Virus record (IMG/VR): IMGVR_UViG_3300013306_000025
Location: 1 to 46,077 of that record
DNA from: a virus
Length of the DNA stretch: 46,077 nucleotides
Strand: one strand, 5' to 3'
The notes beneath the pieces are model-generated. The model ran no database searches, had not been told where the DNA came from, and was given only the letters and a program-made list of their open reading frames with translations. Below, one piece after another: positions 504 through 27,611 of the stretch (positions are counted from its first letter, which is position 1; every line of letters begins with the position of its first letter). Position numbers and translations under genes: made by a program.

Positions 504-1214
504 TTAAACTAGGTCGCGCAGATGCGGCGCGTTGGCTTCAAATACCGCTTGGGCAAAGCCCCGTGGCGTAGCACTACGAATGTTTTTCGTGCGAAGCGAT
601 TTGCCTCCGCACCTGGCCCACCCCGGGTTGGCTCTATGCAAAGGCGGGATATGTCGGCGCACCGGCTCTTGGAATCCTTCGCCGTGCCAAATGCAGGTGC
701 CTTTGTTATATGCGTCACGCCCCGGGTAGATGTCGGGGTAAACGGGGTGCATATCATCCATGGGGAGGTAGCCCCCGAAGTCGCACGGGTTGAACATGAA
801 GTCGGGTTTTCGCCATAGGGTCGACATAACGCCTACAGGGTTCTCCAGTGCCCACGCATCACACTGGCAGGCCTTCGACACGGCAGGAATAAGCTTAGCC
901 AGGTTCATAGCCTCGATTTGGAATTGCGGATTTACGGCAGCTTTCTTGGCGAAATGTTTAGCACCGGCCACTGTCAGATGGGTGCATTCGGGGAAACCAA
1001 ATACAAAAACGACCTCCGGGCCGACCATAGTGGATATCTCGGCCGCATGCTCTTGAATTTGGTCAGGGTAGAACCACATGCCGACCTTCACTAAATTTCC
1101 TTCGCGGTTAACGCCTTCAGTGTGTTGCCCATCGAACACCCAGCATTCATAGCCTGCCTCTAACCACGGGGCGGCCATGAATCCGGTGATGTCGTAAAGA
1201 AAAATGGCTTTCAA
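504..1214 (-). CDS. DNA (cytosine) methyltransferase-like protein, TTG start
   Basis: The 236-residue product resembles a phage family annotated as DNA cytosine methyltransferase-like. It has FGFPECTHL near residue 73, which could stand in for the catalytic PC motif, and ALENPVGVMSTL near residue 122, followed by a basic C-terminal segment with CGGKS. A classical motif I (DxFxGxG) is not obvious, so activity is uncertain. The start is a TTG at 1212-1214 preceded by AGGAG at good spacing; no ATG fits as well. It may protect or mark phage DNA. It sits between the polymerase C-terminal gene and VRR-NUC in the replication operon. Confidence 0.6.
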   Translation of the reverse strand: MKAIFLYDITGFMAAPWLEAGYECWVFDGQHTEGVNREGNLVKVGMWFYPDQIQEHAAEISTMVGPEVVFVFGFPECTHLTVAGAKHFAKKAAVNPQFQIEAMNLAKLIPAVSKACQCDAWALENPVGVMSTLWRKPDFMFNPCDFGGYLPMDDMHPVYPDIYPGRDAYNKGTCIWHGEGFQEPVRRHIPPLHRANPGWARCGGKSLRTKNIRSATPRGFAQAVFEANAPHLRDLV

Positions 1215-1264
1215 ATCGAATCTCCTCTATTTGTGCGCAAGCTTATGCAAGATTCGACTTGTAG

Positions 1265-2257
1265 TCAACCTTTCCTGTAGCGATATGCTTCGAAGCCGGC
1301 TGCGGCCAGGGGGAGGCCGGTCGTCCAGTCGCAACCCGCTGACATCAGATCGGCCAGGTGTTCATGTGTGTACTCGTCGGTATCAGGCGCTTCGCTGATG
1401 ATCTCGTCGTGGACGGTCAGCACGATTTCGTAACCGGCTTTTTCGATCGAGGGGAGGGAATACGCCAATACGTCCCGGGCTACAGCTTGGCAAATATTTT
1501 CGACGAGGCGGCCCCCGTATGTGCGCAGTCGCTCCCACTTGCGGGTGAACTGGTTGACGCCCATGAAAGTGATGCCGCCGTCGTCTTCTACCCGGGGGTT
1601 CGGGTAGCACAGATAGCGGCCTGAAGGGAGCATAATGCGAAGCCATGCGCCGTCGCGCCGGATCTTGTGCATACGGCAGGTAAGCGTATGCCCCGGACTG
1701 TTGATCGCACGTCGCACGACGTCTTCGAGCTCCTTCCACCAAGCGGCGATAGCGGGGTTAGTCTCTCGCCACAGGCGTTTAAAGCTGTCGCAGACGATGA
1801 ACGCGCGATCACTCAAGCCGTATTGGCTTTTGCCCTGGCCGAGTTGCCATTCCAGGAAACTAGCGGCCTCGTCACGGGTTTCGATCGGGATAACATCCCA
1901 CGCTTTTTCCGCCATGTCTTCAAGGTCAATGCGGTAAGTCAAAGCCCCCGTAATATAAGCCCCTACACCGCCGGCATAGCCGAGCATGAGCTCCAAAACT
2001 TTTCCGATGGATCTTTCGTGCTTGCCTACATCTTCCGGGCGTATTCCAAAAGCCTTGGCGTATGCGAGCTTATACATGTCGTGGCCGTCGCGCAGATCGA
2101 AGTCCAAGAACGCTTCAAGCTTCCAGGCTTCACCTGCCAGCCAGGCTAGTACGCGGTTCTCGATACCGGCCAGGTCGGCTACGACGAATTTCTTCCCGGG
2201 CGAGGCGATGAAAACCCCCCGGATCGCGCTAGAGCATTTGTCCATTACGGTTGTCAT
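1265..2257 (-). CDS. DNA polymerase family A, C-terminal (palm/fingers) fragment encoded as a separate gene
   Basis: These 330 residues carry the polymerase half of a phage PolA-type enzyme. Motif A is VVADLAGIENR with D28, the fingers motif is RSIGKVLELMLGYAGG (R82, K86, Y94), and motif C is VHDE (H283, D284, E285). It also has the conserved TYGGRLVENICQAVARD segment. The exonuclease and the front part of the palm are missing and are encoded upstream at 2553-3626. The ATG overlaps the stop of the intervening 99-residue gene as TGATG, so it depends on coupled translation. Catalytic residues look intact, which favours a functional two-piece enzyme over a dead pseudogene. Confidence 0.85.
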   Translation of the reverse strand: MTTVMDKCSSAIRGVFIASPGKKFVVADLAGIENRVLAWLAGEAWKLEAFLDFDLRDGHDMYKLAYAKAFGIRPEDVGKHERSIGKVLELMLGYAGGVGAYITGALTYRIDLEDMAEKAWDVIPIETRDEAASFLEWQLGQGKSQYGLSDRAFIVCDSFKRLWRETNPAIAAWWKELEDVVRRAINSPGHTLTCRMHKIRRDGAWLRIMLPSGRYLCYPNPRVEDDGGITFMGVNQFTRKWERLRTYGGRLVENICQAVARDVLAYSLPSIEKAGYEIVLTVHDEIISEAPDTDEYTHEHLADLMSAGCDWTTGLPLAAAGFEAYRYRKG

Positions 2258-2556
2258 CAGTAAAGATCCTCGCTGAACAGCTCGATACAGTTCGGAGACT
2301 TTTCTCGGCGAACGTTAAGCTGCCCGGCTGCTTCGGCGACTTTATACGCCTCTCGCCGGTCCATGAAAACGCCGCGCTGATCTATGAAACCTTGCTCAGC
2401 TTTTCCCGCCACTTCAAAATCAAACAGACGATCTTCTCTCAACTGGGCCAGAACGCTGTGCATAACCAAGTCGTAGTGCCGCGCGCCACAGATAACCATT
2501 TCGCCGTATCGGCATGCAGCACACACCACGAAACGCCCTTCAATTAAGGTTTTCAC
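2257..2556 (-). CDS. Unknown 99-residue protein inserted between the two polymerase genes
   Basis: The gene starts with GTG (2554-2556), overlapping the stop of the polymerase N-terminal gene as GTGA, and ends overlapping the next start as TGATG. The protein begins MKTLIEGRFVVCAACRYGE, has a CxxC pair and ends ELFSEDLY. It resembles small uncharacterised phage proteins and I see no nuclease motif. It splits a polymerase that is usually continuous. Similar 15-bp sequences lie at both edges (2257-2271 and 2553-2567, 12 of 15 identical), which suggests insertion by recombination at a short repeat. Confidence 0.8.
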   Translation of the reverse strand: MKTLIEGRFVVCAACRYGEMVICGARHYDLVMHSVLAQLREDRLFDFEVAGKAEQGFIDQRGVFMDRREAYKVAEAAGQLNVRREKSPNCIELFSEDLY

Positions 2557-3626
2557 AACAGATCCTCCGCGTCATTTAAAAGCTCTTCAATGGCGTAGTC
2601 GACCCCTTCGGGGCTAAGCGTACCTCTTGGCAGGTTCTGGGGCTGAATTAGGCGCCCCGCCCACCTGCCGGTGCGCAACGCCCCACAGAACGCCAGCAGG
2701 CCGCGTAGGCGGCCGTCAGAACTAACGCCGTTGATAACTCGGCTGTACTTGCTGTTGGACGACTTACTGGACTGCTGGCGAACCCTGAGCAATTCCTTTA
2801 ACTCTTCGGGCATGTCCTCGTTTTCCAGGGCCTTCTCCAAGGTGCTGCCCTTCAAGTCCTTTAGTGCGATGCCATATGCTTCGAGGATGTGTTCAAGCAT
2901 CTTGTCGCGCTGGTTAGCACTGGTCACGGCGCCATCCGTCATTTCGTTAGCCTGACGCGACAGTTCCTTTTGGGCACGGTCCGACGCACGGATAGCGGCG
3001 TGCGCTAAGTCAAGATCCATCAGCACACCGCGCTCATTAATGCGCTGGTCGAGGTGCCACAACTCCTTTTCGGCGCCACGGTAATTCCACCGCGGCAACT
3101 TCTTGTATATTTCTCGCATCGCTTCAATATCGAGACGCCCGTACTCGCGAAAGGCTTCCCATTCGACCGGATGCGTTTCGCGAGTAGCGCGCCGGAGGAT
3201 CTGATTCTTTGGTCGCGGCTTGCAGAACAACTGGATAAGAGCCTTACCGGCCTTGTCCTTCGCCTTGTCCTTCGCAATCCCAAGGATGTCGCCCAGTTTC
3301 TCTAGAGCGCCCGGCAATGAATGCGCCATAGCGCACACCATCGTATCGAACGTCTCTTCTACCGGTATGGTGAAGCCGACGGCGTGCGTCATAACCGTTC
3401 TGTCAAACGCGCTGTTCTGAATGACTTTCTCGTAAGACGGGTCGGCCAGGAGTTCAAACAAATCGCTAACGTCTTCATCCCCATCGCGGATGATTACCTC
3501 GCCTTCACCGACCGCCCACTGCCACATGATGATCTCGGCGCCTTCGGCATAACGGTGCGTCCCGTTGTTGATGGGCGTTTCGCAGAACGTTTCCGTGTCG
3601 AGGAAAATGCTTTTACTGAGATCCAC
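2553..3626 (-). CDS. DNA polymerase family A, N-terminal fragment (3'-5' exonuclease and front of polymerase domain)
   Basis: The 357-residue product begins with a DnaQ-like 3'-5' exonuclease: ExoI FLDTET (D10, E12), ExoII NSAFDR and ExoIII YGRLD. It continues into the PolA palm region with SSKSSNSKYSR and TGRWAGRLIQPQNLPRG. It stops 20 to 25 residues before the place where motif A would follow; motif A begins in the separate gene at 1265-2257. I chose the GTG at 3624-3626 because GGAGG lies about 10 bases upstream. The longer frame to 3668 would overlap the preceding gene more and lacks a site. It overlaps the HTH gene by 14 bases. Confidence 0.85.
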   Translation of the reverse strand: MDLSKSIFLDTETFCETPINNGTHRYAEGAEIIMWQWAVGEGEVIIRDGDEDVSDLFELLADPSYEKVIQNSAFDRTVMTHAVGFTIPVEETFDTMVCAMAHSLPGALEKLGDILGIAKDKAKDKAGKALIQLFCKPRPKNQILRRATRETHPVEWEAFREYGRLDIEAMREIYKKLPRWNYRGAEKELWHLDQRINERGVLMDLDLAHAAIRASDRAQKELSRQANEMTDGAVTSANQRDKMLEHILEAYGIALKDLKGSTLEKALENEDMPEELKELLRVRQQSSKSSNSKYSRVINGVSSDGRLRGLLAFCGALRTGRWAGRLIQPQNLPRGTLSPEGVDYAIEELLNDAEDLL

Positions 3627-4110
3627 TTTTCTTTTTCCTCCGTTGCTGCGGCACCGGGCCGCCGCCAATTTCGTAGACCCTTTCCCAGCTCGGCCAGTTT
3701 AGCGTTAGGTCGCCGCGTTTCTCCGGTACGGCACGTATGCGAGGGCGCCCGGGGTGTTTGGAATTCATCTGCACTACAATCCCGCGCTTTATGGCTGCGC
3801 GCTTCAGCGTGTCGCACTGGCTGTACCCGATAACCCGGGCGGCGTACCCCCAGCTACGCCCCTCTGCGGCCATTCGTTCCAGAGCTTGGCGGATCGTCTC
3901 GCCCGTGTCCTTCAGGTACGCCAGCGCGATAGCGGAGGCGTCGAACGGGTCGCGTTTTGGGTTCTGCGCCAGCATTTTGCAGAAGCTGTCCGGGCGGTAA
4001 CCCAACGCCCTGGCCGTATCGAAGCGCGTGAGCCCCTGGTCCGCGAAGTCCGCTACGAGTTGCCAGAACTCGACACCCCATCGCTCTTCTATCTGACGCT
4101 TGCCGGTCAT
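3613..4110 (-). CDS. Putative DNA-binding protein with two helix-turn-helix-like segments
   Basis: The 165-residue, basic protein has two repeated segments that look like helix-turn-helix units: TRFDTARALGYRPDSFCKML near residue 28 and WGYAARVIGYSQCDTLKRAA near residue 86. The tail ends in RRKKKSGSQ. The start was chosen at 4110 because the preceding 23-codon ORF ends there with an ATGA overlap, matching the coupling seen throughout the operon. It lies directly upstream of the polymerase. It could be a replication-associated or regulatory DNA-binding protein; the family was not recognised. Confidence 0.7.
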   Translation of the reverse strand: MTGKRQIEERWGVEFWQLVADFADQGLTRFDTARALGYRPDSFCKMLAQNPKRDPFDASAIALAYLKDTGETIRQALERMAAEGRSWGYAARVIGYSQCDTLKRAAIKRGIVVQMNSKHPGRPRIRAVPEKRGDLTLNWPSWERVYEIGGGPVPQQRRKKKSGSQ

Positions 4111-4178
4111 GACGCTAACCAATACATGGTCGGCGCCCATACGAAGATCAGGCAGAAGAGAATGCATTTTGTGATCAT
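4107..4178 (-). CDS. 23-residue membrane microprotein
   Basis: A tiny ORF beginning MITKCILFCLIFVW is almost entirely one hydrophobic helix. It is supported by AAGGAG eight bases before its ATG and by ATGA overlaps with both neighbours (upstream stop at 4175-4177, downstream start at 4110). Its main role may be to couple translation between the flanking genes, or it may insert in the inner membrane. No homology is claimed. Confidence 0.55.
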   Translation of the reverse strand: MITKCILFCLIFVWAPTMYWLAS

Positions 4179-4420
4179 CTATTCAGCTCCTTTAAGCATT
4201 TCGCTAGGAGACGATCCGCCTCTACCATCCAGTCAATGGCGGATTTCCGGGTATTGGCGTTAATTAGAGACTCTCTGCAGGACTTTATGTTCTGGATGAG
4301 ATCGGCGTTGACGTCCGACAGTCGAACGAATTTTTCACCGTCTTTCGCCGTAACATCGGCCGCTTCGCAGAACAGCGAACGAAACCCGGCGAAATCGTCA
4401 CTGAATACGAAAACGTTCAC
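4175..4420 (-). CDS. Hypothetical protein of the early operon, GTG start
   Basis: An 81-residue acidic protein (NVFVFSDDFAGFRSLFCEAA near the start) with predicted helical character and no recognised domain. The GTG at 4418-4420 overlaps the upstream stop as GTGA, the pattern of this operon. A second GTG at 4427-4429 would add three residues. Function unknown. Confidence 0.65.
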   Translation of the reverse strand: MNVFVFSDDFAGFRSLFCEAADVTAKDGEKFVRLSDVNADLIQNIKSCRESLINANTRKSAIDWMVEADRLLAKCLKELNR

Positions 4421-16751: not shown

Positions 16752-17240
16752 ATGCTCAGTGAATCCCAGCAAAAATTCGTGGAAGCCACCCTGCGCGGCG
16801 CCGGCCCTAAAGCTGCAGCCATTGCCGCGGGACTTAGCGAGAAAACCGCAGCGTCTGCCGGCTCGCGAATGCGCAGACACCCTACGATCGTGGCCGCACT
16901 GGAGGCTGTCGGGTTCGCTACCCCCGGTGCACCCCTGACTGTCAAAGCGCCTGCCCCAAGAGCTAACCAACCAGAAGAAAAGGAGCCTGAAGAGGTTGCG
17001 GATATCGGCTTGCCGCAGACGGAAGATTCATTGGAATTCCTTGAAGCCGTGGTCGCGAACCCGAACATTCCGCTAGGCCGCCGCCTGGAAGCTGCAAAAA
17101 CTTTGCTTCCGTTTCAGCACGCCAAGATCGGCGAGAAGGGGAAGAAAGCGACGAAAGCGGAAGGCGCAGCGAACGCCGCCGCCGAGGGCAACAAGTTCGG
17201 CGCTCGGGCAGCGCCTGCAGCGCTGAAGGCCGTTAAATAA
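16752..17240 (+). CDS. terS: Terminase small subunit
   Basis: The 162-residue protein opens with a DNA-binding helix-turn-helix region (QQKFVEATLRGAGPKAAAIA, then SRMRRHP) typical of small terminase subunits, followed by a proline/alanine/glutamate-rich linker and a basic tail. It should recognise the packaging site and load the large subunit, which begins one base before its stop ends. Length is normal for the family. Confidence 0.8.
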   Translation: MLSESQQKFVEATLRGAGPKAAAIAAGLSEKTAASAGSRMRRHPTIVAALEAVGFATPGAPLTVKAPAPRANQPEEKEPEEVADIGLPQTEDSLEFLEAVVANPNIPLGRRLEAAKTLLPFQHAKIGEKGKKATKAEGAANAAAEGNKFGARAAPAALKAVK

Positions 17241-18910
17241 TGGGAATTCCGGCATGGACCACTGCCTGCCCAAATTGGGAAGACCGGATCATCAAAGGCG
17301 AAAGCCTGATCCCGTTTGAACCTCTCTTCCCTGACTCGGCCGCCGCCGCCAGGCAGGTTTTGCATTGCCTTAGGATCGTCGACGCCCCGGGTAGCCCAAC
17401 GATAGGCGAAGCGTGCGAACCCTGGACGGACGATTTGGTTAACGCGATCTTTGGCGCGTACAACTCGGAGACCGGGGAACAGTTGATCAAGGAGTTCTTT
17501 CTTCTGATCAGCAAGAAGAACTCCAAGTCAACCCTGGCCGCGGCGATCATGATGACCGTCCTGATCCAGAACTGGCGGATGTCTGCCGAGTTCATCATTC
17601 TTGCGCCGACCAAGGAGGTAGCCGATAACGCTTTCGCCCCCGCTCGTGACATGGTGAAGAACGATCCGGAATTGGACAGCATGATGCAGGTTCAGGATCA
17701 CCTCCGGACCATCACGCACTTGGCCACCGGCGCGACACTCAAAGTCGTAGCGGCGGATACGAACACTGTCGGCGGGAAGAAGGCTGCGGTTGTTTTGGTC
17801 GATGAGATCCACTTGTTCGGCAAGAATCCGAACGCTGAGAAAATGTTGCTTGAGGCTACTGGCGGCTTGGCTTCTCGTCCGGAAGGTTTTGTGCTGTACC
17901 TGACAACGCAGTCGGATGAACCACCGGCCGGCGTATTCCGTTCCAAGCTGCTTTACGCTCGTAAGGTGCGTGACGGCGAGATCGTAGATCCTCAGTTCCT
18001 CCCAGTGCTGTACGAATTCCCGGAAGCGATGATCGAGTCTAAGGCCTACCTTGATCCGGAAAACTTCTACATCACGAACCCCAACCTTGGCCGCTCGACC
18101 AGTGTCGAATTCATCCTGCGCAAGATCAAGCAGGCCCGGGAAATGGGCGAGCCGGAATTACTGAACGTTCTAGCCAAGTATCTGAACGTCGAAATCGGGC
18201 TGGCGCTGCGGACCGATCGATGGGCGGGCGCCGATTACTGGCAAGCCCAGTCGGATCGTTCGGTAACCCTCGACGCTCTGCTAGATCGCGCTGAGGTGAT
18301 CGACGTAGGGATCGACGGCGGCGGCCTGGACGACTTGCTAGGGTTGTCCCTGGTAGGACGGGAGAGGGACACAGGCGATTGGCTGGTGTGGTGCAAAGGA
18401 TGGGCACACCCTTCGGCGATGAAACGCAACCTGCAGGAAGCGGCCAGGTTCGAAGACTTCGCCCGGGCCGGTGACCTGGTAATGGTTTCCCACATCGGTG
18501 ACGACGTGACGGAAGTCTGCGACATCGTTGAACGCGTTTACGATTCAGGCTTACTCGACAAGATCGGCGTTGACCCCGTGGGCATCGGCGCCATTTTTGA
18601 CGAACTGGTCGCGCGGTCGATCCCGGAAGACAAGATTGTCGGTATTAGCCAGGGTTGGAAACTCGGCGGCGCTATCAAGACCACTGAACGCCGCCTGGCC
18701 GAAGGGAAGCTGAAGCATGCGGAGCAGCCTTTGATGTCGTGGTGCGTATCGAACTGCCGTGTAGAGCCTCGGGCAAACTCGATCCTGATCACGAAACAGG
18801 CTTCAGGCTCGGCAAAGATCGACCCGGTGATGGCGCTGTTCAACGCGGTGTCGTTGATGGCCTTGAACCCGGCAGCAGCGCACAAAAAGTTTCAAATGCT
18901 GTTTTTATGA
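17240..18910 (+). CDS. terL: Terminase large subunit
   Basis: The 556-residue protein is an HK97-type large terminase (Terminase_1 type). The ATPase has a deviant P-loop SKKNSKST (91-98) and Walker B VVLVDEIHLFGK (D188, E189). The nuclease half includes VGIDGGGLDDLLG, where aspartates bind metal. It translocates DNA through the portal and cuts it. TAATG overlap with the small subunit. Confidence 0.95.
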   Translation: MGIPAWTTACPNWEDRIIKGESLIPFEPLFPDSAAAARQVLHCLRIVDAPGSPTIGEACEPWTDDLVNAIFGAYNSETGEQLIKEFFLLISKKNSKSTLAAAIMMTVLIQNWRMSAEFIILAPTKEVADNAFAPARDMVKNDPELDSMMQVQDHLRTITHLATGATLKVVAADTNTVGGKKAAVVLVDEIHLFGKNPNAEKMLLEATGGLASRPEGFVLYLTTQSDEPPAGVFRSKLLYARKVRDGEIVDPQFLPVLYEFPEAMIESKAYLDPENFYITNPNLGRSTSVEFILRKIKQAREMGEPELLNVLAKYLNVEIGLALRTDRWAGADYWQAQSDRSVTLDALLDRAEVIDVGIDGGGLDDLLGLSLVGRERDTGDWLVWCKGWAHPSAMKRNLQEAARFEDFARAGDLVMVSHIGDDVTEVCDIVERVYDSGLLDKIGVDPVGIGAIFDELVARSIPEDKIVGISQGWKLGGAIKTTERRLAEGKLKHAEQPLMSWCVSNCRVEPRANSILITKQASGSAKIDPVMALFNAVSLMALNPAAAHKKFQMLFL

Positions 18911-18944: not shown

Positions 18945-20912
18945 ATGAACAGAGCCTATAGCGTTCTTGACGTAAAAGCGGTTAACGCTGAAACGCGGAC
19001 CATCACCGGATGGGCGACAACCCCGGGTGTCGATCGTGTAGGCGACATCGTGGAACCGCTCGGCGTGCAGTACAAAAACCCGCTTCCGCTCCTGTGGCAG
19101 CATGATCACCAGCAACCTGTGGGCCTGGTCGAATTCGGCAAGCCGACCGCTAAAGGCGTTCCGTTCACCGCGACTTTCGCCGAAGTGACAGAGCCTGTAG
19201 GCTTGTTCAACCGTATCGAAGAGGCATGGCAGTCGGTTAAAGCCGGCTTGGTTCGTGCGGTGTCGATCGGCTTTCGCGACATGGGTTCGGAACCGATCAA
19301 AGGTAGCTGGGGCACCCGATTCCTGAAAACTGAAGTTTACGAATTGTCACTCGTCACCATTCCCGCAAACGCGGAGGCGACGATTACCAGTATCAAAGCG
19401 TTCGACATTGGAGCACCTGCCGCGTCCGGCAAAAAGGAATTCACTGTCGTCAAGCTTGAAAAACCCGCCGGCGCTTCGGCACCCGTTGTAAAACACATTC
19501 CTGTAGTTCCGAAGCCCGAGGAGGGCCAAGACATGAAATTCGGTGAACAAATTAAATCGTTCCAAGCTGCCTTGGAACTGAAAATGGCTCGACAAACCGA
19601 GCTGATGGAAAAAGCGGGCGAAGAAGGCCGTAGCCTGGACGCTACCGAGTCGGAAGAGTTCGACACCCTGTCGGACGAAATCACCGCCACCCAAACCCAC
19701 ATCAAGCGCTTGGAAGTGATGGAGAAGTCCAACGTTGCCGCCGCTAAGCCCGTGGTAGACACAACTGGTATGCAGGAACGCAACCGCGCTCCCGCAATCG
19801 TCAAATCGGTGAAGAACGAAGAGAAAGGCGTGGGCTTCGCCAAGTTCGCCCTGGCGATGTACGCCGGTAAAGGCGATGTGTCAAGCGCCAAGGCCTTCGC
19901 GGAACACAAGTTCCCGGACGACGTCCGTCTGCAAGGCATCATGAAAGCCGCCGTAGCCGCGGGCACCACTACCGACCCAACTTGGGCGGGCAACCTGGTC
20001 GATTACACCAACCTTTCGTCGGAATTTATCGACTTTTTGCGTCCTCGCACAATTGTAGGTCAGTTCGGCGCCGGTAACGTGCCGTCGCTGCGCCGTGTGC
20101 CGTTCAACGTGCGCATCCCCGGCAAAACCTCTGCGGGTTCCGCAGCGTGGGTTGGCGAGGGCTACCGCAAGAAAGTGACCAAGTCCGGCTATGAAGCCCA
20201 AACCCTCACCTGGGCGAAAATCGCAGCAATCTCCGTCGTCACCGACGAGCTGTCGCGCTTCTCTGACCCAGCTATCCAAACCCTGGTGCGTGACGACCTG
20301 GCAGACGCCGTGATCGAGCGTATGGACGTGGATTTTGTCGATCCAGACAAGGCAGTAGGCACCGGCGCTTCGGCTAGCCCCGCTTCTATCACCAACGGCG
20401 TCACCCCAATTCCGTCCAGTGGCACCGATGCTGACAGCGTTCGCGCTGACATCGCGGCTCTGTGGGCCGAGGCGGATGCTACCAACCTGCCTACGGCTAG
20501 CGCGGTCTACATCACCGACGCCAAGACTGCTCGCGCTCTGTCGCTCCTGCGTAACCCGCTCGGCGCTACTGAGTTCCCGGGCGTCACCATGGCCGGCGGC
20601 AGCATCGATTCGGTTCCGTTGATCGTGTCGAACTACGTACCGTCTGACTCCAGCGGCTCTCTGTTCATCCTGGCTTTTGCCAGCGAGATCTACCTGGCTG
20701 ACGACGGCGTGGTGACCATCGATCTGTCGAAGGAAGCAACAATCTTCCTCGACGACGACGCTGCAAACGCCACGCCAACTGCTGCGCAGCTCGTCAGCAT
20801 GTTTCAAACTAACCAAACGGCCATACGCGCCGAGCGCTGGGTACGATGGCAGAAGCGGAGACCGCAGGCTGTGGCCTTCCTCGATTCGGTGAATTGGGGG
20901 GTAGGACCATAA
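18945..20912 (+). CDS. Prohead protease-major capsid protein fusion
   Basis: The 655-residue chain starts with a U35-type prohead protease (HDH at 53-55 in LLWQHDHQQP, S107 in VRAVSIGF) and continues without a stop into an HK97-fold major capsid protein: a helical delta-like scaffold (about 200-290) and the shell domain (for example DELSRFSDPAIQTLVRDDLA). Usually these are two genes. An in-frame ATG at 19533 (M197) with GAGGAGGG about seven to nine bases upstream would give a 459-residue capsid-only product, so one gene could supply few protease-bearing chains and many capsid subunits. Confidence 0.9.
   Translation: MNRAYSVLDVKAVNAETRTITGWATTPGVDRVGDIVEPLGVQYKNPLPLLWQHDHQQPVGLVEFGKPTAKGVPFTATFAEVTEPVGLFNRIEEAWQSVKAGLVRAVSIGFRDMGSEPIKGSWGTRFLKTEVYELSLVTIPANAEATITSIKAFDIGAPAASGKKEFTVVKLEKPAGASAPVVKHIPVVPKPEEGQDMKFGEQIKSFQAALELKMARQTELMEKAGEEGRSLDATESEEFDTLSDEITATQTHIKRLEVMEKSNVAAAKPVVDTTGMQERNRAPAIVKSVKNEEKGVGFAKFALAMYAGKGDVSSAKAFAEHKFPDDVRLQGIMKAAVAAGTTTDPTWAGNLVDYTNLSSEFIDFLRPRTIVGQFGAGNVPSLRRVPFNVRIPGKTSAGSAAWVGEGYRKKVTKSGYEAQTLTWAKIAAISVVTDELSRFSDPAIQTLVRDDLADAVIERMDVDFVDPDKAVGTGASASPASITNGVTPIPSSGTDADSVRADIAALWAEADATNLPTASAVYITDAKTARALSLLRNPLGATEFPGVTMAGGSIDSVPLIVSNYVPSDSSGSLFILAFASEIYLADDGVVTIDLSKEATIFLDDDAANATPTAAQLVSMFQTNQTAIRAERWVRWQKRRPQAVAFLDSVNWGVGP
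19515..19535 (+). promoter_or_regulatory. Internal ribosome binding site for separate capsid protein
   Basis: GAGGAGGG followed by CCAAGAC and an in-frame ATG (19533) within the protease-capsid gene. The strength and spacing are better than at most true starts in this genome, and the position is exactly between the protease and scaffold domains. Expected product: residues 197-655. Confidence 0.6.
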
Positions 20913-20997: not shown

Positions 20998-22101
20998 ATG
21001 ACTGATTACATTTATGCGCTGTTGTGCCCTCAGGGGGAAATCCGCTACATAGGGAAAAGTACGAATCCTACCTCTAGATTACGATCACACATCTCACGTG
21101 CTAGATCAGGGGAGACTAAACACCACGCAGCGAACTGGATACGATCTCTCCTCACAAAAGGAGAAAAGCCCTCCGTCGAGGTTTTGTTGCAGGTGCCGGA
21201 AGGAGAGCCGTGGGAACCGTACGAAATTCGACTTATCGCGGAGTTCAAAGAAGAAGGGCATCGTCTGACTAATTCGACAGGGGGCGGCGAAGGGTTCTTC
21301 GATGTAAGCCCTGAGGCTATCGCCAAGAGGGTCGCAGCGAACAGGGTAACCAGAATGCAACCAGCGCATCGCGCTCGCATGAGCGCAATAATGACGGAGG
21401 TTAGGAATCGGCCCGAGTTCGTAGAGTACATGTCAAAGCGCCTTACTGAAGCGTGGCAAAACGAAGTTTTAAGGAACAATATCCTAGAGGGTATGCGGCA
21501 GCCGGATGCCGTAGAACGTCGTAAAGCCGCTTCTGCGAGGAGATATGAAGACCCCGCCTACACCGCCGCGCATGCAGAAAGAAGGCGTAAAGAGTTTCAG
21601 GAAAATCCAGAAGCTTTTGCGGCGTTCCAAGAAGCGTCACAGTCAGAGGCTACCAAGGCCAAACGCCGAGAGTCTTTGGCGGCGGTCCGGGCCACGCCCG
21701 AATACCGGGAGAAGAACCTGGCCGCACTGGCAGAGATTAAAGACCGACCGGAAGTGAAGGCCAAGAAGTCCGCTGCGGCCCGTGCTAACTTCTCAGGCGG
21801 CGCTTTGGAAAAGTGCGTACAATCCGAAGAATTTAAAGCCGACCAAGCGGAAAGGCTTAAGGGCCGCTGGAAAGATCCAGAAGCGAAGGCCAAGATGCAC
21901 GGCGCACGCTGGACTGAAGAACAACGAGCGGCGCAGGCCGCGGCACTAGAAGCGCGCCGGGAAAAGATGGCGGCAGCCATGACGCCAGAAGTCCGAGCCA
22001 GGCAAGGCGCCAAGATGAAAGAGTATTGGGCGCGGAAAAGAGCCGAAAAAGCCGCTAAGCTTGCCGCAACAACGCCCGCCCCGTACACTGAATCAACCTA
22101 A
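20998..22101 (+). CDS. GIY-YIG homing endonuclease with NUMOD-like repeats
   Basis: The 367-residue protein starts with a GIY-YIG nuclease domain (YIYALLCPQGEIRYIGKST, with Y6, R16 and G19; EIRLIAEF follows). From about residue 100 on it has many helical, Lys/Arg-rich units of the form RPEVKAKKSAAARANFS, resembling NUMOD3 DNA-binding repeats. It is free-standing, between the capsid and portal region genes, bounded by a terminator upstream. Such genes spread by cutting phage genomes that lack them and are not needed for virion assembly. Confidence 0.85.
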   Translation: MTDYIYALLCPQGEIRYIGKSTNPTSRLRSHISRARSGETKHHAANWIRSLLTKGEKPSVEVLLQVPEGEPWEPYEIRLIAEFKEEGHRLTNSTGGGEGFFDVSPEAIAKRVAANRVTRMQPAHRARMSAIMTEVRNRPEFVEYMSKRLTEAWQNEVLRNNILEGMRQPDAVERRKAASARRYEDPAYTAAHAERRRKEFQENPEAFAAFQEASQSEATKAKRRESLAAVRATPEYREKNLAALAEIKDRPEVKAKKSAAARANFSGGALEKCVQSEEFKADQAERLKGRWKDPEAKAKMHGARWTEEQRAAQAAALEARREKMAAAMTPEVRARQGAKMKEYWARKRAEKAAKLAATTPAPYTEST

Positions 22102-27168: not shown

Positions 27169-27238
27169 GCGGTTGTCCCTGGGGGTGTTTTTGCCTTCCA
27201 AGCTAAAAGACAGGGTTCGACTCCCTGCAGCCGCCCCA
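27169..27238 (+). tRNA. tRNA-Gly (UCC), shortened D arm
   Basis: The acceptor GCGGTTG pairs fully with CAGCCGC (one G-U), the T arm CAGGG-TTCGACT-CCCTG is perfect, and CCA is encoded. The anticodon loop CTTCCAA gives anticodon UCC, and GCCTTCCAAGC is identical to the bacterial tRNA-Gly(UCC) core. Oddities: the D arm is only about 12 bases, the anticodon stem has a U-U mismatch, and base 73 is C rather than the usual U. It may be a decaying or modified phage tRNA. Confidence 0.65.
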
Positions 27239-27535: not shown

Positions 27536-27611
27536 GTCCGGGTAGTGTAATTGGCAACATGCCGGCCTCCAAAGCCGTGCGTTCTAGGTTCGAATCCTAG
27601 CCTTGACGCCA
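27536..27611 (+). tRNA. tRNA-Trp (CCA)
   Basis: A 76-base cloverleaf: acceptor GTCCGGG/CCTTGAC (one mismatch and one G-U), D arm GTGT-AATTGGCA-ACAT, anticodon loop CTCCAAA with anticodon CCA, T arm CTAGG-TTCGAAT-CCTAG, discriminator G and encoded CCA. All these fit tRNA-Trp; G73 is the expected identity base. Confidence 0.85.

Follow-up and report, generated by a model that had tools for sequence, protein, structure and literature searches.

The locus described here, a DNA polymerase gene interrupted by a small unrelated gene, raises the question of whether it still provides a polymerase and whether the small gene was responsible for breaking it. We have analysed it in the 46,077-base virus record IMGVR_UViG_3300013306_000025, the whole of which is referred to as the window, and in its relatives.

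Polymerase genes of the window

The polymerase is encoded on the minus strand in two genes. The N-terminal half (N-half, positions 2553 to 3626, 357 aa, with a GTG start at 3626 and a TGA stop ending at 2553) comprises the 3'-5' exonuclease, the thumb and the initial part of the palm through QPQNLPR and the next helix. The C-terminal half (C-half, 1265 to 2257, 330 aa, with an ATG start at 2257 and the stop at 1265) contains the remaining palm and the fingers, with motifs A, B and C. The former matched PF01612 (3'-5' exonuclease, E 1.3e-9) and phrog_17 DNA polymerase (7.5e-51), the latter PF00476 (DNA_pol_A, 7e-13) together with phrog_7766 and phrog_17 DNA polymerase. In the translations, the exonuclease motifs DTET, NSAFD and YGRLD are followed by QPQNLPR in the N-half, and motif A (ADLAGIENR), motif B (RSIGKVLELMLGYAGG) and motif C (TVHDE) are present in the C-half, i.e., the exonuclease domain and the three polymerase motifs in the conserved order of a family A (Pol I/Klenow-type) enzyme. 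An earlier inspection of the letters alone (the sequence-only reading) had described a polymerase in two genes with all its catalytic motifs kept; translation and the Pfam and PHROGs searches bear out both the coordinates and the motifs.

Alignment of the halves to an intact phage PolA had been proposed as a check. The N-half is 53-57% identical to the intact PolA of the nearest cultured phages, including Bordetella phage BPP-1, and the C-half is 59% identical to that of BPP-1. Both map to adjoining coordinates of the single BPP-1 gene with zero gap; they are complementary, and the insert in the window is therefore exactly 298 bp. Between them lies, as first noticed, an ORF of 99 codons, intact (ORF99, 2257 to 2556, minus strand, GTG start) that overlaps the N-half stop as GTGA and the C-half start as TGATG.

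Distribution and age of the split

A search of IMG/VR with each half provided 35 further contigs carrying close halves on one contig. Polymerase proteins were identical in two contig pairs of this set. In 34 of the 36 contigs (the window and its 35 IMG/VR relatives) the break falls at one and the same residue; the remaining two (L072/L009 and L073/L007) have a continuous frame. The split cannot be put down to an assembly error private to the window, since it recurs in 33 other IMG/VR contigs. Its examples all come from metagenomes, with no cultured member among the matches found, and a search of genome contigs for the host gave just one distant match, in a Bacteroidia MAG.

The next-nearest relatives, reached from the deep member L099, all have a continuous polA (70 of 70), and 32 of them served as the outgroup for the trees. 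In the tree of N-half residues 1-267, the split set and the two fused genes formed one clade with a support of 96. For the tail of the N-half plus the C-half, a single clade was not rejected (AU p 0.67), and the constrained tree outscored the quick search. The split is old and common to the clade, most likely with a single origin in its ancestor; since recombination is visible in the trees, the case for a single origin depends on clade tests made with mosaic sequences. The two fused genes nest within the six-member subclade of the window and are 94-96% identical to it by half. With a fused pair inside a split subclade, a frame-restoring re-fusion is the simplest reading, and polA has probably been re-fused in these two nested relatives. 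The junction of L079 is empty, yet over both halves this contig shares 96% identity with the window. The idea that the entry of the small gene caused the split thus fails, the split being ancestral to the clade and many relatives, L079 for example, being split without any insert.

The gene between the halves in the window

ORF99 is a member of the T4 Arn.3 family (phrog_839, E 2.5e-35) and has the conserved GARH, EQGFIDQ and C-terminal SE(x)LY of that family. Over the C-terminal 92 residues of T4 Arn.3 the identity is 39% (E 5e-15), extending through the final SEDLY. A family alignment of 25 relatives from other viral contigs showed EQGFIDQ to be invariant and the sequences to close with an SE(x)LY-type motif; with small variations, SEDLY ends the members of the family wherever they are found. 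In Aeromonas phage TSW001 the relative follows nrdB with a 4-base overlap, and the copies of T4 and of an Enterobacter phage are located in the arn-motA region. T4 Arn itself is an anti-restriction protein that inhibits McrBC. The label "anti-restriction nuclease" carried by homologues is an annotation only, the sequence likeness being to Arn.3, and an anti-restriction role for ORF99 is suggested solely by this gene neighbourhood. An AlphaFold2 model predicts a confident small alpha/beta domain (pLDDT 87). Comparison with the PDB gave no significant match by sequence (E up to 10) or by Foldseek fold search, and the absence of a Foldseek match does not establish a new fold.

Among the 36 contigs compared, this is the only one with ORF99 in the polA junction. 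The sequence-only reading had suggested that its product holds the halves together, which is unlikely given that homologous halves lacking ORF99 carry unrelated genes or nothing between them. Two findings had been named in advance as jointly speaking against that reading, relatives of ORF99 located elsewhere and halves that do not complement each other; the former was found, whereas the halves are complementary. ORF99 is best read as cargo, rather than as a polymerase subunit or a splicing element.

The junction as a site of gene exchange

The junction is occupied in 24 of the 34 split contigs and empty in 10, where it is reduced to a bare ATGA, TGATG or TAATG join (e.g., L079, L076, L088, L090 and L105). 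All the inserts are coding; at their start they overlap the N-half by NTGA, and at their end they overlap the start of the C-half. Cassette families were assigned via Pfam and PHROGs. HNH-AP2 genes occur in L070, L081, L085 and L106, and with phrog_757 in L083; NUMOD4-HNH in L078 and, assigned by similarity, L082; an N6/N4 methyltransferase in L071, L095, L074, L089 and L093; and a C5 methyltransferase with an overlapping partner ORF in L091 and L096, and with DUF7220 in L087. The junction holds phrog_757 in L084, L097, L092 and L104 (with DUF7220 in L101), phrog_12600 in L094 and L099, a 39-aa ORF in L100 and ORF99 in the window. An HNH or methyltransferase-type gene is present in 20 of the 24 occupied junctions, phrog_757 being called a methyltransferase by PHROGs alone, without a Pfam match. 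The window has a phrog_757 gene too (504 to 1214, minus strand, E 4.7e-73); it is located directly downstream of PolA, outside the polymerase, yet the same family lies within the PolA junction in six relatives.

Turnover at this position is fast. Parsimony on the combined tree gave 22 changes of junction state, and the state differs in 28 of the 33 pairs with near-identical N-tail and C-half. Because inserts differ between such near-identical flanks, ORF99 did not create the split and is unlikely to bridge the halves. The genes adjoining polA on the outside are also mixed small ORFs, with 17 families among 30 downstream and 19 among 33 upstream. Given such variable outer neighbours, the inner junction may be no more special than the gene boundaries of the region; it is distinctive by its type of cargo, and the outer boundaries turn over too.

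As a separate observation, a C5-methyltransferase ORF is overlapped for most of its length by a second long ORF in another frame (phrog_1008/phrog_31772), which is likewise overlapped for most of its own length (L091:7071-8229, L096:7101-7890, L087:7286-8075, L107:5092-5994 and L075:9089-10052). The conservation of this overlap in several contigs makes it an apparent case of dual coding.

Sequence of the joins

The upstream join of the window (2553 to 2567, minus strand, GAGGATCTGTTGTGA) contains the final codons of the N-half (E-D-L-L-stop), a Shine-Dalgarno sequence and the GTG start of ORF99. The downstream join (2255 to 2271, minus strand, GAGGATCTTTACTGATG) contains the native C terminus of ORF99 (S-E-D-L-Y-stop), a Shine-Dalgarno sequence and the ATG start of the C-half. 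The similarity of 2257-2271 to 2553-2567 (12 of 15 positions) is correct as first reported, but the recombination at a short repeat that had been read into it does not follow, and a scar is not demonstrated. The stretch common to both edges, GAGGATCT, encodes E-D-L at the end of the N-half and in the C terminus of ORF99, where SEDLY is native to the family, and it holds the Shine-Dalgarno for the start of the next gene. A scan over all relatives found a Shine-Dalgarno of this kind before most C-half starts. As the repeat consists of native E-D-L coding plus a Shine-Dalgarno, no insertion scar is needed.

Edge similarity over the 24 occupied junctions is modest (a mean of 6.75 matches in 15, against 4.0 at other ATGA sites) and consists largely of the Shine-Dalgarno plus D-L codons. 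Short homology at these motifs could still help cassette exchange. An origin of the edge repeat by target-site duplication was discarded, given the SEDLY native to the ORF99 family and the modest edge similarity.

Do the halves belong together?

The dN/dS values against the nearest relatives (split or fused) are 0.03-0.06 for the N-half and 0.02-0.05 for the C-half, and none of the 36 N-halves has an internal stop. What was ancestrally a single ORF is now two complementary ORFs, each under purifying selection, as in other genes in pieces. Complementary halves, intact motifs and strong purifying selection, taken together, make a two-chain enzyme the best reading.

A way to look at the relationship between the halves is to compare their inheritance region by region. 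The trees of the N-half and the C-half conflict strongly. Pairwise distances over N-half residues 301-357 correlated with those of the C-half at 0.77, in contrast to those over residues 1-240 (r about 0.05-0.2). The inheritance boundary lies inside the N-half, at residues about 260-300 (window about 2730-2850, minus strand), and N/C swapping exactly at the gene boundary was accordingly rejected. Within the C-half, correlation with the remainder is lost again over the final ~60 residues. The N-tail, which completes the palm, is thus inherited with the C-half despite the changing gene between them, as expected if both are part of one folded unit. Since they are neighbours, linkage alone could contribute to this pattern.

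The AlphaFold2 model of the intact relative L073 (pLDDT 90.6, pTM 0.87) has a Klenow-like fold, superposing on Klenow 1kfs_A with a Z of 27.2 over 529 aligned residues. The position of the split falls in a loop (351-361) between the helices 339-350 and 362-373. These observations imply a polymerase that would be obligately two-chain, or three-chain in eight of the relatives, and whose gene slot is exchangeable.

In those eight contigs (L075, L084, L089, L092, L097, L098, L100 and L104) the C-half is cut again just before motif C, by EAWRP-stop or ETWRP-stop overlapping a new start, leaving the polymerase in three pieces (L084:3125-3322, L098:5388-5585, L092:5014-5211 and L089:9622-9819). This second split also maps to a loop of the model (632-634). 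In addition, intein-like in-frame blocks with C...HN-C boundaries are found at motif B in L069, L075 and L104 and before motif C in L069, L089 and L101 (L069:3789-7538, L075:7071-8882, L104:4737-6545, L089:7787-9634 and L101:7990-9894). In four of the five, polA is split as well.

Alternative explanations

The sequence-only reading had a small gene inserted by short-repeat recombination, creating the split and encoding a bridge between the halves. The precise ORF size of the insert, its overlaps at both ends and the reality of the 12-of-15 repeat agree with it, but we consider it very unlikely in view of the relatives split with nothing or with unrelated inserts, the two near relatives that are fused without ORF99 and the SEDLY end native to the Arn.3 family. 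A start by homing endonucleases is possible, if doubtful. HNH cassettes would have come first and been replaced later, the empty junctions being deletions. Endonucleases that split essential phage genes are a known route (PMC2988022), and seven contigs have an HNH-AP2 or NUMOD4-HNH cassette in the junction. However, the three deepest branches hold phrog_12600 (L099), the 39-aa ORF (L100) and nothing (L107), none of them an HNH gene, and the empty ATGA state can be explained by a one-base frame change with no insert required. The gap of the window has no homing-endonuclease gene either (ORF99 is phrog_839), and an HNH gene seen in seven relatives is not a feature of the whole clade.

Could the two genes nevertheless give a single chain? 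Phage polA genes can contain introns and inteins, and several relatives have the intein-like blocks in the C-half mentioned above. Removal of the cassette by RNA or protein splicing (an intron or split intein) is nevertheless extremely unlikely here: stops separate the parts, the inserts are coding throughout and many junctions have no insert but do have the frame break. A ribozyme or an intron of group I or II was rejected, as no Rfam match was found around the insert (E up to 1, positions 1000-4200) or in six related loci. An intein or split intein was rejected as well, since the window junction, which reads EDLL-stop / MTTVMDK, has no intein Cys or HN-Cys; the intein-like blocks of the relatives are only elsewhere, in the C-half. 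Programmed -1 frameshifting, which would yield a full-length polymerase besides the two chains, is compatible with the -1 offset of the N- and C-frames at the empty ATGA and TGATG overlaps. But an X XXY YYZ heptamer is not visible at the empty junctions inspected, and with a cassette in between the N-half cannot be joined to the C-half, making this mechanism highly improbable. Finally, the breakage of polA into up to three pieces in some relatives might be taken for decay, with the halves as pseudogene fragments; dN/dS values of 0.02-0.06, N-halves free of internal stops in all 36 contigs, intact catalytic motifs and the preserved overlaps and Shine-Dalgarno sequences leave practically no room for it.

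Comparison with known split polymerases

Split phage polymerases with an intervening gene are already known, from T4-like gene 43 and from the family A enzyme of MEP401. In the OM43 phages MEP401 and MEP402 (Zobellviridae), a small ORF separates the two ORFs of a family A polymerase (gp13-gp14-gp15) (PMC10580990), which is split, as in the window clade, between the QN motif and motif A. Theirs is a distinct polymerase lineage, with 24.8-31.2% identity to HMO-2011-type polymerases according to the authors, who suggest an intron and do not describe cassette exchange (PMC10580990). The break precedes the motif A Asp by a few residues there and by about 28 in the window, and the small ORF is not ORF99-like by eye. 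In Salmonella phage SS3e, a family A polA is also in two ORFs, with an HNH endonuclease gene between; its break is in the motif B region and has intein-like ends, so that one spliced product is expected, unlike at the window junction, which lacks an intein. The nearest studied homologue, BPP-1 PolA (bbp42), is a single continuous gene within the same order as in the window (exonuclease, SSB, PolA, endonuclease, helicase).

In the T4-like phages 25 and 44RR, gene 43 is divided into 43A and 43B with an endonuclease gene or spacer between them, and the phage 25 pair co-purifies and is active (reviewed in PMC2988022). This is a family B enzyme, the gap of which holds a homing endonuclease or untranslated sequence only, and not a many-gene slot. 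A homing-endonuclease origin has been proposed for this split and shown for Aeh1 nrdA/mobE, where a gene inserted into that for an essential ribonucleotide reductase has divided the enzyme into two chains that still function (PMC2988022); this is another enzyme, with one insert type. Our literature search, which covered subscription papers poorly, found no report of the present split-PolA clade. As far as that coverage goes, the clade-wide split of a family A PolA, the exchangeable slot and the co-inherited palm parts are new, as are the probable re-fusion and the three-piece versions.

Other features of the window

Outside the polymerase locus, the window terminase (17240-18910, plus strand) is 64% identical to that of Pseudomonas phage vB_PaS_IME307; a terminase nearest to IME307 and a PolA nearest to BPP-1-type phages point to a mosaic genome. 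A gene resembling a fused capsid protease/major capsid gene (18945-20912) directly precedes a 367-aa ORF (20998-22101, plus strand) that resembles a GIY-YIG-type endonuclease with a long repetitive tail. There is also a tRNA-Trp gene with a CCA anticodon (27536-27611, plus strand) and a weak tRNA-like match (27169-27235, plus strand).

Proposed mechanism and biological meaning

With a probability of roughly 0.83, we interpret the locus as encoding a two-chain Klenow-type PolA whose ancestral split is now a gene boundary with exchangeable cassettes, ORF99 being cargo. The replicative polymerase would be made as two separately translated chains that assemble, chain 1 providing the exonuclease, the thumb and the first part of the palm, and chain 2 the remaining palm, the fingers and the three polymerase motifs. 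The break sits in the inter-helix loop shortly before motif A. It most likely arose once, in the clade ancestor, for which a one-base frame change creating an ATGA stop/start overlap could suffice. The overlapping stop and start codons and the Shine-Dalgarno sequences would couple translation, keeping the chains co-produced, and cassettes are probably exchanged via recombination in the polA sequence on either side of the gap. Since the junction now places a gene boundary within a conserved and essential gene, cassettes of unrelated origin come and go at this point and leave both chains unbroken.

One practical consequence is that gene callers and marker-gene surveys that expect a single PolA ORF will misread such phages. 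Close relatives also offer a natural series of one polymerase in fused, empty split, cargo-bearing split and doubly split forms, which makes it possible to test the tolerance of the enzyme to cutting, the unaided assembly of its chains and the interchangeability of halves between phages.

Tentatively, the split may have been maintained because the junction is a useful cargo slot for modification, nuclease or counter-defence genes. If so, a gene in the slot would be translated in a fixed ratio with an essential polymerase and would be safe from loss, since such a deletion would also take polA. The lineage would gain a plug-in position for anti-restriction functions, flanked by palm parts passed on as a matched pair, and the Arn.3-like ORF99 would be a counter-defence protein. 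Within this essential gene, the slot exchanges its DNA-methyltransferase and nuclease genes more rapidly than the sequence on either side changes, which is relevant to the ways in which phages pick up genes for modification or counter-defence.
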